A stretch of 64,000 nt of DNA from Rhodobacterales bacterium (GTDB taxonomy: Bacteria > Pseudomonadota > Alphaproteobacteria > Rhizobiales > Stappiaceae). The DNA lies in the NCBI GenBank assembly GCA_008107755.1, contig VIRH01000082.1, positions 124,001 to 188,000 of the forward strand, read 5' to 3'. The position numbers and the translations under genes are program-made. Shown piece after piece: positions 6,297 to 37,680 of the stretch (the first letter of the stretch is position 1; each line of letters starts with the position of its first letter). The notes under the pieces are model-generated. The model had not been told where the DNA came from, did not search any database, and worked only from the letters and a program-made list of their open reading frames with translations.

Positions 6297-6313
6297 AGCC
6301 TCGGACAAGCTTG
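6297..6313 (+). promoter_or_regulatory. Flagellar promoter/operator motif, copy 1 (flgB unit)
   Basis: AGCCTCGGACAAGCTTG, one of nine near-identical 17-mers upstream of flagellar transcription units in this window. It ends 44 nt before the flgB ATG. It fits the consensus AGCYTCGCRCAAGNTYG at all strongly conserved positions (AG at 1-2, CAAG at 10-13, T at 15). Confidence 0.6.
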
Positions 6314-6357
6314 CCGACTTACTCCTTGACGCAACCTGAGCTGATAGGAGGTTTTCG

Positions 6358-6738
6358 ATGGAACCCGTGTTCCTGACCAAAATCGTTTCGAACAACAATG
6401 AATGGCTTTCGACGCGTCAGGCGACGATTGCGGAAAACATCGCCAATGCGAACACGCCCGGATTTCGGGCAAAGGATCTTGAGCCGTTCACGACGGTGAT
6501 CAGCAAGACCCAGCTGGCGATGACGGCAACTCATGACGGTCATCTTGGACAGGTGATGGAGGTTTCGCGTCCATCAGAAGTCGAGAAAGCCGAAAGCTGG
6601 GCCGTTACCCACTCTGGCAACTCCGTCAGCCTCGAGCAGGAACTGATGAAGGCCGGTGAGGTTGCGCGAAATCACTCGCTCAATACGTCCATCGCGAAAT
6701 CCTTTCACCGCATGTACCTCACGGCCGTGAAATCTTAA
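6358..6738 (+). CDS. flgB: Flagellar basal-body rod protein FlgB
   Basis: Proximal rod subunit, 126 residues, normal length. The conserved rod-protein N-terminus ENIANANTPGFRAKDLEPF is present at residues 25-43 and a helical C-terminal region closes the protein. A strong ribosome site (ATAGGAGGTTTTCG) precedes the ATG. It is the first gene of the flgB-flgC-fliE-flgG-flgA-flgI run and lies directly downstream of the shared flagellar promoter motif at 6297-6313. Exported by the flagellar type III apparatus and assembled in the periplasm. Confidence 0.95.
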   Translation: MEPVFLTKIVSNNNEWLSTRQATIAENIANANTPGFRAKDLEPFTTVISKTQLAMTATHDGHLGQVMEVSRPSEVEKAESWAVTHSGNSVSLEQELMKAGEVARNHSLNTSIAKSFHRMYLTAVKS

Positions 6739-6749
6739 GGAAATCAGAC

Positions 6750-7166
6750 ATGTCCGATCCGCTCGCCGCCACACTTCATATCTCCGCCGCCGGCTTGAGA
6801 GCCCAGTCCGAGCGGCTGCGCATCGTCTCCGAAAACCTCGCCAATGCGCGGTCGACGGGCAAGACGGCCGGTGACGATCCTTATCAGCGCAAGACGATCA
6901 CCTTCGAAAGCGAATTCGACCGTGCGCAGCAGGCAAACCTCGTCTCCGTGAAAGGGATAGGCGCCGACAAGGCACCTTTCACGGTGGAATACGATCCCGG
7001 CCATCCGGCTGCCGACGAAGACGGCTACGTGAAGATGCCGAATGTCAACACGCTGCTCGAACTTGCGGACATGCGTGAAACCAACCGGTCCTACGAGGCC
7101 AACCTGAAAGTTATGACGCAGGCCCGTGAAATGGTCATGCGCAATATCGACCTCTTGAGGAACTGA
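6750..7166 (+). CDS. flgC: Flagellar basal-body rod protein FlgC
   Basis: Proximal rod subunit of 138 residues. It has the flg_bb_rod N-terminal helix (LHISAAGLRAQSERLRIVSENLANARS) and the typical C-terminus of rod proteins (ADMRETNRSYEANLKVMTQAREM...). It starts 11 nt after flgB and is followed after 2 nt by fliE, so it is in the same operon. Full length, no oddities. Confidence 0.95.
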   Translation: MSDPLAATLHISAAGLRAQSERLRIVSENLANARSTGKTAGDDPYQRKTITFESEFDRAQQANLVSVKGIGADKAPFTVEYDPGHPAADEDGYVKMPNVNTLLELADMRETNRSYEANLKVMTQAREMVMRNIDLLRN

Positions 7167-7168
7167 CA

Positions 7169-7507
7169 ATGATCAACGAAATTTCTGCACTGACCTCCGC
7201 ATCCGGTACCGACGGCATTCTCAAGAGCGCGTCCACCACCCGCTATTCCGCCAGCGGACCCGATCTCGGCGGCACCGAGGCTGCCGGCAACGTCAGTTTT
7301 TCCGACACAATGGCCCAGGTCTCCCAGGGCGCGATCGACAAGATCAAGCAGGGCGAGGCGGCATCGATTGCCGGCGTCGACGGTCAGGCGTCCGTTCAGC
7401 AGGTCGTCGAGGCCGTCATGGCCGCCGAAAGCTCGCTTCAGACCGCTATCGCCATCCGCGACAAGGTCGTGTCCGCTTATCAGGAAGTCAGCCGGATGAC
7501 GATCTGA
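7169..7507 (+). CDS. fliE: Flagellar hook-basal body complex protein FliE
   Basis: 112 residues. FliE forms the junction between the MS ring and the rod. The conserved C-terminal half is visible (SIAGVDGQASVQQVVEAVMAAE and ...TAIAIRDKVVSAYQEVSRM), ending as FliE proteins usually do in a YQEVxRMxI-like tail. The N-terminus is serine/threonine-rich and poorly conserved. Located 2 nt after flgC. Confidence 0.92.
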   Translation: MINEISALTSASGTDGILKSASTTRYSASGPDLGGTEAAGNVSFSDTMAQVSQGAIDKIKQGEAASIAGVDGQASVQQVVEAVMAAESSLQTAIAIRDKVVSAYQEVSRMTI

Positions 7508-7554
7508 CCGGTCTCGCACCGGTCATGGTCTTCCGTCTTTAAAGGAGTTCTCCC

Positions 7555-35729: not shown

Positions 35730-36669
35730 CGAAAAGATCCTTTTCTTCCTCATGGATGAGCTCGTCGATCTGCAGGGTGTAGGAGCCATCGAGTTGGCCC
35801 AGATTGCAGGTGAAGACAGGCTGCTTGTTACACTCGAGCGTGACGGGGGTGCGGGCGGTTGCCTGCAGTTCTATGACCTGGCCGACCCTCAGGTTGGAGA
35901 GATCGCCCAAGGACATCTCGCGCTCTTCCAGGATGGCCTCCAGCTTGACTTCCGTCCGCTGGATTTCATTGTGGAAGTGCTGGGTCCACTGCTTGTCGCG
36001 GCCGGACATTTCGCCCGACAGCACCTGCGACAGGCGCTGACGAAGCGGGTTCAATGTGGAGTGAGGCATCACGACGAAGACTTCGCCGCCGCGGCCGATG
36101 GCCTGCTGCAGAAGACGGGCGACAACGGCAGGGTTGTTTCTGCGTCCGACCACCGCGAAGTCCATGCGGCTTTCGATCCGTTCTATCTTCAGGGTCGTCT
36201 CTGCGATCGGGGCGAAGGATTCCGCCAGTGACTTGGCCGCGACCTCGAACATCGTGCGCGCGATTCGCGTCTCGATGTTGGAAAAGGAACGCTCCTCGTC
36301 GATGGGCGGCTCCAAGCCGTCGGCCCCGAAGAGAACGTCGACCAGTGTGAAGATGAAGTCGCGGTCGAAACCGATGAGAACCCGTGCGTCCCATTCCGGA
36401 GAGTAGAGCACAGCGACGAGGGCGTTGGATTCGAACTCGTCTAGCACGTCGCCGATCCTGTTGTTCTCGACGTAACTGACCGAGATGTAGGACGGCGAGG
36501 GGGACTTCTGGCGCATCGCGTCGGCCATCAGCCGGGCCATGCGGTCAAAGACCACCGGCAGCATCGGAAGCCGGTCGACGGAGATGCCGGCGGCATCCAG
36601 AAGTCGGTCGGCGATCTTTGCTCTTTCGGAACTTGAAGCGTTCGAGCTGGCAGTAGCTGCTTCGATCAT
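35710..36669 (-). CDS. fliM: Flagellar motor switch protein FliM
   Basis: 319 residues, C-ring protein. CheC-like middle domain (RVLIGFDRDFIFTLVDVLFGADGL, then RIARTMFEVAAKSLAESF) and a C-terminal SpoA domain (VKLEAILEEREMSLGDLSNLRVGQVIELQATARTPVTLECNKQPVF). The N-terminal CheY-binding motif of enteric FliM is not obvious. Ends inside the start region of the next gene. Confidence 0.92.
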   Translation of the reverse strand: MIEAATASSNASSSERAKIADRLLDAAGISVDRLPMLPVVFDRMARLMADAMRQKSPSPSYISVSYVENNRIGDVLDEFESNALVAVLYSPEWDARVLIGFDRDFIFTLVDVLFGADGLEPPIDEERSFSNIETRIARTMFEVAAKSLAESFAPIAETTLKIERIESRMDFAVVGRRNNPAVVARLLQQAIGRGGEVFVVMPHSTLNPLRQRLSQVLSGEMSGRDKQWTQHFHNEIQRTEVKLEAILEEREMSLGDLSNLRVGQVIELQATARTPVTLECNKQPVFTCNLGQLDGSYTLQIDELIHEEEKDLFDDLRNR

Positions 36670-36672
36670 GAC

Positions 36673-37563
36673 TTAGGCCGCTCCCTGGAAGTCCTGGACG
36701 TTGTCGCCGCCGCCGGCACTCATTGTCTCGTTCTCGACTTCGTCTATCGTGGGACGGTCGTAGTCGGAGATGGTCTTGCGGCCATGCTCCAGCGCGATCT
36801 GAGGATCGGCGCCATTCATGAAGGCAAGAAGCGTTTGCTTGACGACGATGTAGGTCCTCAACCGAGACTCGCGCACACCCTTGATCTTTGCCGCGATCGG
36901 GCCGAACAGGGAGTAGGAGAAGAAGATGCCCACGAACGTTCCGACCAGCGCTGCGCCGATGAGGCTGCCGAGAAGCTGCGGAGACTGGTCGATGGCACCC
37001 ATTGCCTTGATCACCCCGAGCACCGCAGCGATGATCCCGATGGCCGGCAGAGCGTCAGCGACGCTGCTCATGGCGTGGTACGGTTTCATCTGATCGCGGT
37101 GGATGGTGTGGAGTTCCTCGTCCATCAGCGCTTCGATCTCATGCGCGCGGGCGTTGCCGACGATGATCAGTCGGAAGTAGTCGCATATGAAGGTCGTCAG
37201 GCTGGCGTTACGAAGGACCGCCGGGTACTTCTGGAAGATCGGGGACGTATTTGGATCCTCGATATGTGGCTCGACCTGGTTTCGGCCCTTGGCGCGAAGC
37301 TCGCGCATCAGGCCGTAGAGCAGAGCCAGGACATCCAGATATTCGCGCTTGTTCGGCACCGCATTGCGCAGCGCGTCGGAACAGGCGACGACGGTTCCCT
37401 TTATGGTTTTCATCGGGTTGGCAACGACAAAGGCGCCGATGGCCACGCCCAGGATAATGACGAGCTCCCAGGGTTGCCACAGTACGGAGACCTTGCCTCC
37501 GAGCGCGGCAAAGCCGCCGATTAGGGAAGCGCCCGCAATGAACAGGCCGATAAGAATAGTCAC
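36673..37563 (-). CDS. motA: Flagellar stator protein MotA
   Basis: 296 residues with four membrane helices. Conserved parts are the cytoplasmic loop (LALLYGLMRELRAKGRNQVEPHIEDP), VADALPAIGIIAAVLGVIKAMG and LIGAALVGTFVGIFFSYSLFGPIA. It forms the proton channel with MotB. First gene of the leftward block, 57 nt downstream of its own inverted copy of the flagellar motif. Only 3 nt separate it from fliM. Confidence 0.96.
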   Translation of the reverse strand: MTILIGLFIAGASLIGGFAALGGKVSVLWQPWELVIILGVAIGAFVVANPMKTIKGTVVACSDALRNAVPNKREYLDVLALLYGLMRELRAKGRNQVEPHIEDPNTSPIFQKYPAVLRNASLTTFICDYFRLIIVGNARAHEIEALMDEELHTIHRDQMKPYHAMSSVADALPAIGIIAAVLGVIKAMGAIDQSPQLLGSLIGAALVGTFVGIFFSYSLFGPIAAKIKGVRESRLRTYIVVKQTLLAFMNGADPQIALEHGRKTISDYDRPTIDEVENETMSAGGGDNVQDFQGAA

Positions 37564-37619
37564 CTAGCAGCTCCCGTCTGGTGAAAGTTTCAAACTGTGC
37601 TGGAGGGAAGCTAGAAGCT

Positions 37620-37636
37620 GAGACTTGTCCGAAGCT
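37620..37636 (-). promoter_or_regulatory. Flagellar promoter/operator motif, copy 8 (motA unit, minus strand)
   Basis: On the minus strand this reads AGCTTCGGACAAGTCTC, ending 56 nt before the motA start codon. It shares the divergent intergenic region with copy 9. Confidence 0.55.
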
Positions 37637-37663
37637 GACCGGAAGAAGGCATGGGATGTGATC

Positions 37664-37680
37664 AGCCTGGCGTAAGGTCG
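37664..37680 (+). promoter_or_regulatory. Flagellar promoter/operator motif, copy 9 (DUF1217-flgF-fliI unit)
   Basis: AGCCTGGCGTAAGGTCG, ending 47 nt before the ATG of the DUF1217 gene. It is the only copy with TAAG instead of CAAG. Confidence 0.5.

Follow-up and report, generated by a model that had tools for sequence, protein, structure and literature searches.

The stretch of DNA analyzed here (the window; 64,000 nucleotides, nt, of contig VIRH01000082.1 of a Rhodobacterales bacterium of the Stappiaceae, GenBank assembly GCA_008107755.1) carries a gene cluster for a lateral-type flagellum, followed by the gene of an OmpR-type regulator. An earlier note, made from the letters alone, had drawn attention to a 17-bp element that stands ahead of nine flagellar transcription units, and it is this element and its probable reader that concern us. 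Matches to Pfam or NCBIfam name flgB, flgC-like, fliE, flgG, flgI, fliL, flagellin, fliF, MotB-like, MotC-like, fliK, flgE, flgK, flgD, flhA, rod-binding, flhB, fliM, motA, flgF-like and fliI genes in the cluster. The open reading frames (ORFs) that we take to be motE, flgH, fliP, flgL, flaF, flbT, fliR and fliG, from their position and from rhizobial gene order, are not named by such matches. Among the matches listed, the closest named FliF loci are mostly of Roseibium/Labrenzia, so we regard the genome as probably that of a Roseibium. The cluster represents the "lateral" flagellar system found in Hyphomicrobiales, whose OmpR-type regulator is known as Rem, FtcR or LafR. Passages of PMC6406911 group the cluster of Labrenzia with the lateral system of Bradyrhizobium, note a second, subpolar-like set scattered elsewhere, and include Labrenzia, Pannonibacter and Polymorphum among the carriers of the lateral system. 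The features are as follows (bit scores are those of an extended matrix built only from 80 loci of other genomes).

6358..41357: lateral-type flagellar gene cluster, nine transcription units with one element each (operon limits deduced from the order of the genes)
6294..6325 (+): element 1, tandem repeat 6294-6313 plus -10 region, before flgB (6358), 27.3 bits
9987..10018 (+): element 2, before the motE-like gene (10054) and those that follow, 29.6 bits
12871..12902 (+): element 3, before flagellin (13031), 34.0 bits
14028..14059 (+): element 4, before fliF (14098), 25.1 bits
21084..21115 (+): element 5, before flgE (21149), 23.8 bits
26701..26732 (+): element 6, before flhA (26765), 25.0 bits
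30028..30059 (+): element 7, before the flgJ/rod-binding gene (30167), 22.4 bits
37661..37692 (+): element 8, before the DUF1217, flgF-like and fliI genes, 18.8 bits, the weakest of the nine
37608..37639 (-): element 9, before motA (37563) and the minus-strand fliM-to-flhB unit, 27.2 bits
41653..42456 (+): Rem/FtcR/LafR-type regulator, OmpR-type DNA-binding domain, receiver with Gly for the phospho-accepting Asp
6235..6266 (-): possible element 10, divergent from flgB, before the gene with ATG 6176 and a PilZ gene, 17.4 bits

The regulator encoded at 41653 has an OmpR-type C-terminal domain (Trans_reg_C, E=2.1e-16) and matches solved relatives of the OmpR family. The position of the phospho-accepting aspartate (Asp) in its receiver, which we placed by eye against PhoB, is glycine (Gly) in all 31 aligned rows (the Rem of the window counted twice), and with the position so placed the receiver is of the aspartate-less kind; a phmmer alignment to 2oqr pairs another, nearby residue, Asp50, with the Asp of that chain. 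The Gly agrees with the label "aspartate-less" given to Rem in the portion of PMC9812332 that we cite. A sensor histidine kinase and then a receiver-DUF3369-GGDEF-EAL protein are encoded after rem (42815-46733, plus strand). Action of this kinase on the Asp-less receiver of Rem is unlikely.

All nine 17-mers (6297, 9990, 12874, 14031, 21087, 26704, 30031 and 37664 on the plus strand, 37620-37636 on the minus strand) read as the earlier note had described them, and each heads a flagellar unit. A1, G2, A11, A12 and G13 are present in nine of nine and C10 and T15 in eight of nine, and the A eight bases past the 17-mer is kept at eight of the nine. The distance from the end of the 17-mer to the start codon is 44, 47, 140, 50, 45, 44, 119, 47 and 56 nt in the order given, so that seven of nine fall within the 44-56 nt claimed; the value of 47 nt at 37664 requires ATG 37728 and not GTG 37695 of the longest ORF, and ATG 37728 is probably the start codon of the unit behind element 8. 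Three copies had been said to follow terminators, and terminator-like hairpins (9948-9976, 13964-13997 and 20985-21014) do end 13, 33 and 72 nt ahead of the sites at 9990, 14031 and 21087, respectively. These hairpins are among the four strongest of a scan that overall gives 18 hairpins vs 15.9 expected.

By count alone, the written consensus sets the sites only weakly apart from chance. With up to three mismatches it finds 10 places in the window vs 5.6 expected (nine of the 10 are the reported sites), and 10 of 100 shuffles reach 10; genome-wide such counting gives 466 places vs 342 for the reversed pattern and was set aside as not decisive. A tighter consensus with two mismatches gives 8 matches vs 1.2 expected, a number reached by none of 100 shuffles. 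A matrix of the nine sites ranks them 1-9 of ~128,000 window positions on both strands at 17.6-23.3 bits, 4.5 bits clear of the next position at 13.1. When each site is left out in turn, the scores are 13.5-21.9 bits, with 1-14 equals among 799,360 background positions (14 for the weakest, at 13.5 bits). This background, 400 kb of the same genome, is non-random and included the neighborhoods of four near-matches outside the window. Its top three positions by the extended matrix reach 18.1, 16.4 and 15.3 bits, compared with 18.8 bits for element 8.

The anatomy of the element becomes clear in the relatives. Of 216 gene-assigned sites, 100 nonredundant ones were kept (a few overlap at tandem places), and their consensus extends the 17-mer on both sides: G(75%)-C(62%)-M(98%)-AGCYTCRSRCAAGSTTG-N5-C-T-A(90%)-N-A-N-T(68%), with the A at position 25 and the T at position 29. 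The reported 17-mer is truncated; the full element begins three bases earlier and includes a -10. Its body, GCMAGCYTC-NN-RCAAGSTTG, repeats in tandem and in the same direction at a period of 11 bp. Of the lags from 3 to 16, only lag 11 gives a strongly positive column similarity (+9.3 bits over nine columns), while the best nine-column window at the other lags from 3 to 13 scores -0.6 and lag 15 gives +0.9 over seven columns. The first three columns of the repeat lay outside the search matrix, yet they join the lag-11 repeat. Direct repeats of 11-bp period are the form of OmpR-family sites, and with two direct half-sites at about this period the element has the make-up of a tandem operator of the OmpR/PhoB family.

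The arms AGCYT-N5-AAGCT could also be read as an inverted repeat bound by a symmetric dimer of another family. The dyad centered at 8.5 scores +3.1 bits over 11 columns, and that at 13.5, inside the second half-site (AAGCTT), +5.4 bits over six, which per column equals the direct repeat; of the 12 in 100 sites with C at position 2, position 14 is G in eight and C in four. The direct repeat triples the score of the 8.5 dyad over fewer columns and includes bases outside the search matrix, and the sites with G at both positions 2 and 14 (16 of 100) break the dyad. We regard the inverted repeat as very improbable.

A sigma70-like -10 (TAnnnT) comes after the repeat at constant spacing, the second half-site ending 6 bp ahead of it, and there is no -35 consensus: the -35 slot holds AGCYTC, unlike a -35. 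By sequence the element fits an operator that takes the place of the -35, with the sigma70 -10 at a constant distance downstream. All nine window sites have a purine at position 37, as do 71 of 100 sites of relatives; this position was chosen as the predicted start after inspection of the sites. Counted from this predicted start, the repeat spans about -39 to -18 and the -10 spans -13 to -8. The earlier suggestion that the element is part of a promoter is borne out: the -10-like TAnnnT recurs at its spacing in relatives although it was outside the matrix. The same anatomy bears on the two readers then proposed, FtcR/Rem or a dedicated sigma factor. In a sigma promoter the 17-mer would be -35 plus spacer, and the fixed spacing to the conserved A/T pair would fit; the conserved block, 20 bp long and self-repeating, is too long for a -35, the -10 fits sigma70 TAnnnT, and no sigma gene was found among the ~40 window ORFs scanned, a search confined to the window. 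A dedicated sigma factor is likewise very improbable, and that half of the proposal finds no support here. The Rem half gains from the 11-bp repeat and from the way that the element tracks Rem in 150 and 41 genomes (below).

Conservation was assessed in 80 loci (1.60 Mb), the best 80 of at least 557 FliF relatives, a sample that leans to near relatives. They include Roseibium, Pannonibacter, Breoghania, Cohaesibacter, Microvirga, Chelatococcus, Bosea, Methylobacterium, Beijerinckia, Afifella, Bradyrhizobium, Xanthobacter, Ancylobacter, Azorhizobium and Aurantimonas. A scan with the matrix of the nine sites returns 119 matches of at least 18 bits vs 4 for the reversed matrix, and 30 permuted matrices give a mean of 0.67 and a maximum of 4. 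At 13 bits or more there are 305 matches, with a gene of a type found in the window within 400 nt for 226 and none for 79 (permuted matrices: mean 36, maximum 114). An equal frequency of matches in coding or non-flagellar regions had been named as the outcome that would speak against the element, and this is not what is seen. Matches of at least 13 bits occur in the 200 nt before 206 of 286 operon heads vs 8 of 784 internal genes (24 kinds together, 3 of 67 for the flgF-like gene), counting genes with a placeable start; permuted matrices expect at most 0.35 per gene. Such sites precede fliF in 65 of 79 loci, flgB in 50 of 58, flagellin in 45 of 56, flhA, motA and DUF1217 in 2 of 2 each and flgJ in 1 of 2. 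No element lies upstream of rem in the 16 loci in which that gene was placed.

Between loci of the Roseibium group (10 loci, 8-10 per gene) identity is 81-88% in the motif block, a value inflated by selection on the matrix, and 29-52% in the 5' flank; in the -10 block, which was not selected, it is 55-89%. In all 80 loci the -10 block is 48-58% identical vs 28-32% for the 5' flank. Three genomes with Rem lie outside the training of the extended matrix, which came from the 80 loci only, although one Aurantimonas locus, perhaps of the same family as the three, supplied 2 of its 100 sites. Two of them (G159 and G057) have sites of 18.1-26.9 bits before flgE, flhA, flgB, fliF, flgJ and motA, and in the third (G184, 38 kb scanned) sites of 21.4 bits each precede fliF and flgE. 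The sequence evidence for a conserved promoter element with the repeat geometry of OmpR-type sites is very strong.

Co-occurrence with Rem was followed with R1, a model of 78 sites (the nine of the window and 69 of the 100 nonredundant ones). A match at E<=1e-40 was called Rem-positive, which holds for 36 of 150 genomes of the order; outside the genome of the window, the best matches to the window regulator in these are at 47-63% identity. A best R1 match of E<=0.0115 is found in 29 of 36 Rem-positive vs 1 of 114 Rem-negative genomes; at the laxer E<=0.1 the counts are 34 of 36 vs 36 of 114. The best match of the lone Rem-negative genome with a strong match (G139) precedes an ORF that shows no similarity to flagellar proteins of the window. 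Among 41 Roseibium genomes the separation at E<=0.005 is complete: 24 of 24 Rem-positive genomes (best E<=0.0048, 3-11 matches each at E<=0.1) vs 0 of 17 Rem-negative ones (best E>=0.0079, 0-2 matches at E<=0.1, none in 11). In three genomes (G003, G004 and G007) rem lies ~250-500 kb from fliF on the same contig, and in G008 on another contig. G004, G007 and G008 have R1 matches near rem as well as at the fliF cluster, which makes the lateral cluster look split in these genomes. The same three, of a Roseibium subclade, have an element-like site (loci L253 and L252 and G008:C19:591850, respectively) far from the flagellar genes, and 53 nt downstream of it begins a conserved protein of 433 aa and unassigned family; its ORF was read in L252 and L253, and the G008 case is an R1 match only.

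In its own genome the element keeps to the cluster. R1 lists 22 matches at E<=10, of which the window sites, members of its training set, hold ranks 1, 2, 3, 4, 6, 7, 8, 10 and 19, element 3 being the top match; outside the cluster we found no convincing element, matches with E>0.06 having been inspected in part. One R1 match (C11:54094) is antisense to a CheB-like ORF and was put down to chance. Eight places in the genome lie within one mismatch of the consensus, four in the cluster and four elsewhere, and the latter were read as inside other genes and also taken as chance. A second, distantly related FliF (G000:C142:218336, 33% identity) is accompanied by some further flagellar genes. Its contig has no R1 match listed at E<=10 (150 of 2,419 first-look candidates scored), and in the 31 kb around it the extended matrix reaches at most 14.0 bits. 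One element-like site with a -10 is seen inside flgD (26073-26104, plus strand, 17.2 bits), facing flhA; it was kept off the element list, and R1 did not list it.

The alternative that comes closest to Rem is another OmpR-family regulator that also serves the lateral cluster. The 11-bp tandem repeat suits the whole family and the genome holds further OmpR-type proteins; on the side of Rem, its gene is the sole one of OmpR type in the ~40 window ORFs scanned, the element comes and goes with Rem across the 41 Roseibium genomes, and none was seen near the second FliF in this genome. We consider this alternative unlikely, and the assignment of the element to Rem strong but indirect. Several observations weigh against Rem as the reader or against the generality of the element, besides the two dyads described above. 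The window regulator has 14 matches in its own genome (itself included), so other OmpR-type proteins are present. Gain and loss of Rem go along with gain and loss of the lateral structural genes, so that co-occurrence cannot single out Rem from another regulator tied to the cluster. The training sites of R1 came in part from Roseibium and from the window itself, which makes the Rem-positive side of the comparison partly a matter of construction. Seven of the 36 Rem-positive genomes lack a strong R1 match (G184, G095, G127, G148, G037, G145 and G099; in the last two the Rem matches are partial only). Only 31 of the 66 flgE genes, and 8 of the 19 motE genes, have a site ahead of them, and G159 and G057 have no match of at least 12 bits assigned to motE or flagellin. 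Finally, the published Brucella FtcR motif, TGTGGGCA, is absent from these promoters: the window has no copy on the plus strand and one on the minus strand, at 15761.

An action of the element in the RNA leader, on translation or stability, can also be envisaged, as it lies near the start codon at most units. Its distance to the start codon varies by gene from <40 to ~170 nt while that to the -10 is fixed, and the -10 follows the element; we give this reading hardly any credence. The flagellin units have long leaders (about 130-170 nt in most, loci L111-L190), and many start with an RCAGGTT-like stretch near the predicted 5' end (at ~12908-12922 in the window), as judged by eye. FlbT acts on flagellin translation, and this stretch is possibly an FlbT-type site.

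We hold it to be highly probable, from sequence, that the element serves the lateral flagellar regulon as operator and promoter, read by Rem in activator-dependent sigma70 promoters. The half-sites GCMAGCYTC and RCAAGSTTG, head to tail at an 11-bp period, would face the same side of the helix and occupy the place of the -35 ahead of the sigma70-type -10. Rem most likely binds them as a head-to-tail pair and contacts RNA polymerase, and transcription is predicted to start 7-8 nt past the -10, at the purine 20 nt past the 17-mer. As Rem lacks a phospho-accepting Asp, its output probably depends on its abundance or on partner proteins and not on a kinase; as rem lacks the element, it would sit above the lateral regulon. 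For Roseibium, binding, activation, start sites and independence from phosphorylation are what we infer. A wider claim seems reasonably likely: GCMAGCYTC-NN-RCAAGSTTG-N6-TAnnnT would be the ancestral, working site of Rem/FtcR/LafR across Hyphomicrobiales, phosphorylation-free, heading nearly every lateral unit, primary over the published 8-mer, and in Roseibium recruiting a PilZ gene.

The PilZ gene belongs to a pair on the minus strand (5277-6176) divergent from flgB, with relatives in Roseibium loci. It encodes a small protein that looks secreted (ATG 6176), with a possible glycine zipper that stays below cut-off (E=0.09), and a protein (5277-5654) whose PilZ domain narrowly passes the Pfam cut-off (E=1.2e-4). 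Ahead of it lies the possible element 10, at 17.4 bits; after the 26073 site, the next window positions score 9.9. The matrix of the nine sites reaches at least 13 bits at this place in six Roseibium-group loci (L111, L113-L116 and L126). Against a tenth element, one position of the 400-kb background reaches 18.1 bits and R1 did not list 6235-6266. The possible tenth element may control the operon of the PilZ protein, and the pair is a candidate effector of cyclic di-GMP (c-di-GMP) for the lateral flagellum.

The element is kept across many genera of the order, Bradyrhizobium included, and makes the direct regulon readable from sequence in Bradyrhizobium, Microvirga, Methylobacterium, marine Roseibium and relatives. 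It distinguishes the two flagellar systems within a cell and opens to test the control of transcription by an Asp-less response regulator. One master regulator, through a doubled site, most likely switches on the whole side-flagellum program.

Rem, FtcR and LafR are already known as flagellar master activators; we found no published site that fits flagellar promoters in the passages of the literature considered, and the older primary work on the three may hold a description of the element. Rem directly activates class II genes (PMC9812332, in part) and LafR controls lateral and not polar flagella (PMC8429497, in part); the sections of both at hand state the activation and give no DNA site, nor is there a site in those of PMC4018554, PMC8639532 and PMC10469942. 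For Brucella FtcR, the parts of PMC9456535 cited here report the chromatin immunoprecipitation (ChIP) motif in 118 of 363 peaks and electrophoretic mobility shift assays (EMSA) with the promoters of ftcR and betI; they also cite binding of FtcR ahead of fliF, without placing the 8-mer there. The lone copy of the 8-mer in our window falls inside the fliF unit. A start-site study of S. meliloti describes three de novo motifs, none like this element in the sections consulted (PMC3616915).

The window regulator resembles Rem (Sinorhizobium, Agrobacterium), LafR (Bradyrhizobium), FtcR (Brucella) and ActR (Azorhizobium) in kind of cluster and in its Asp-less receiver; Brucella FtcR differs in that its ChIP site, as given in the text cited, is missing from the window promoters. 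The lateral flagellar system of Hyphomicrobiales described in PMC6406911, as far as its cited passages go, has the same cluster content and regulator, and its main text differs from this report in being without the word "promoter". The CtrA flagellar promoters of Caulobacter and of Rhodobacter fla2 are alike in that an alphaproteobacterial OmpR-family regulator is needed for flagellar genes (excerpts of PMC6180460). They are unlike in their site. CtrA binds TTAA-N7-TTAA, unrelated in sequence to the element. The closest likeness in build is to PhoB-type promoters. PhoB sites are tandem direct repeats of 11-bp period, and the Pho box differs in sequence from the element, whose presumed reader, moreover, has no phospho-accepting Asp. 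In S. meliloti the PhoB box overlaps and replaces the -35, with 16 of 33 boxes 22-25 nt upstream of the start (PMC3616915, in part); the element, likewise, is a tandem repeat over the -35 slot, with a -10 downstream and no -35 consensus.

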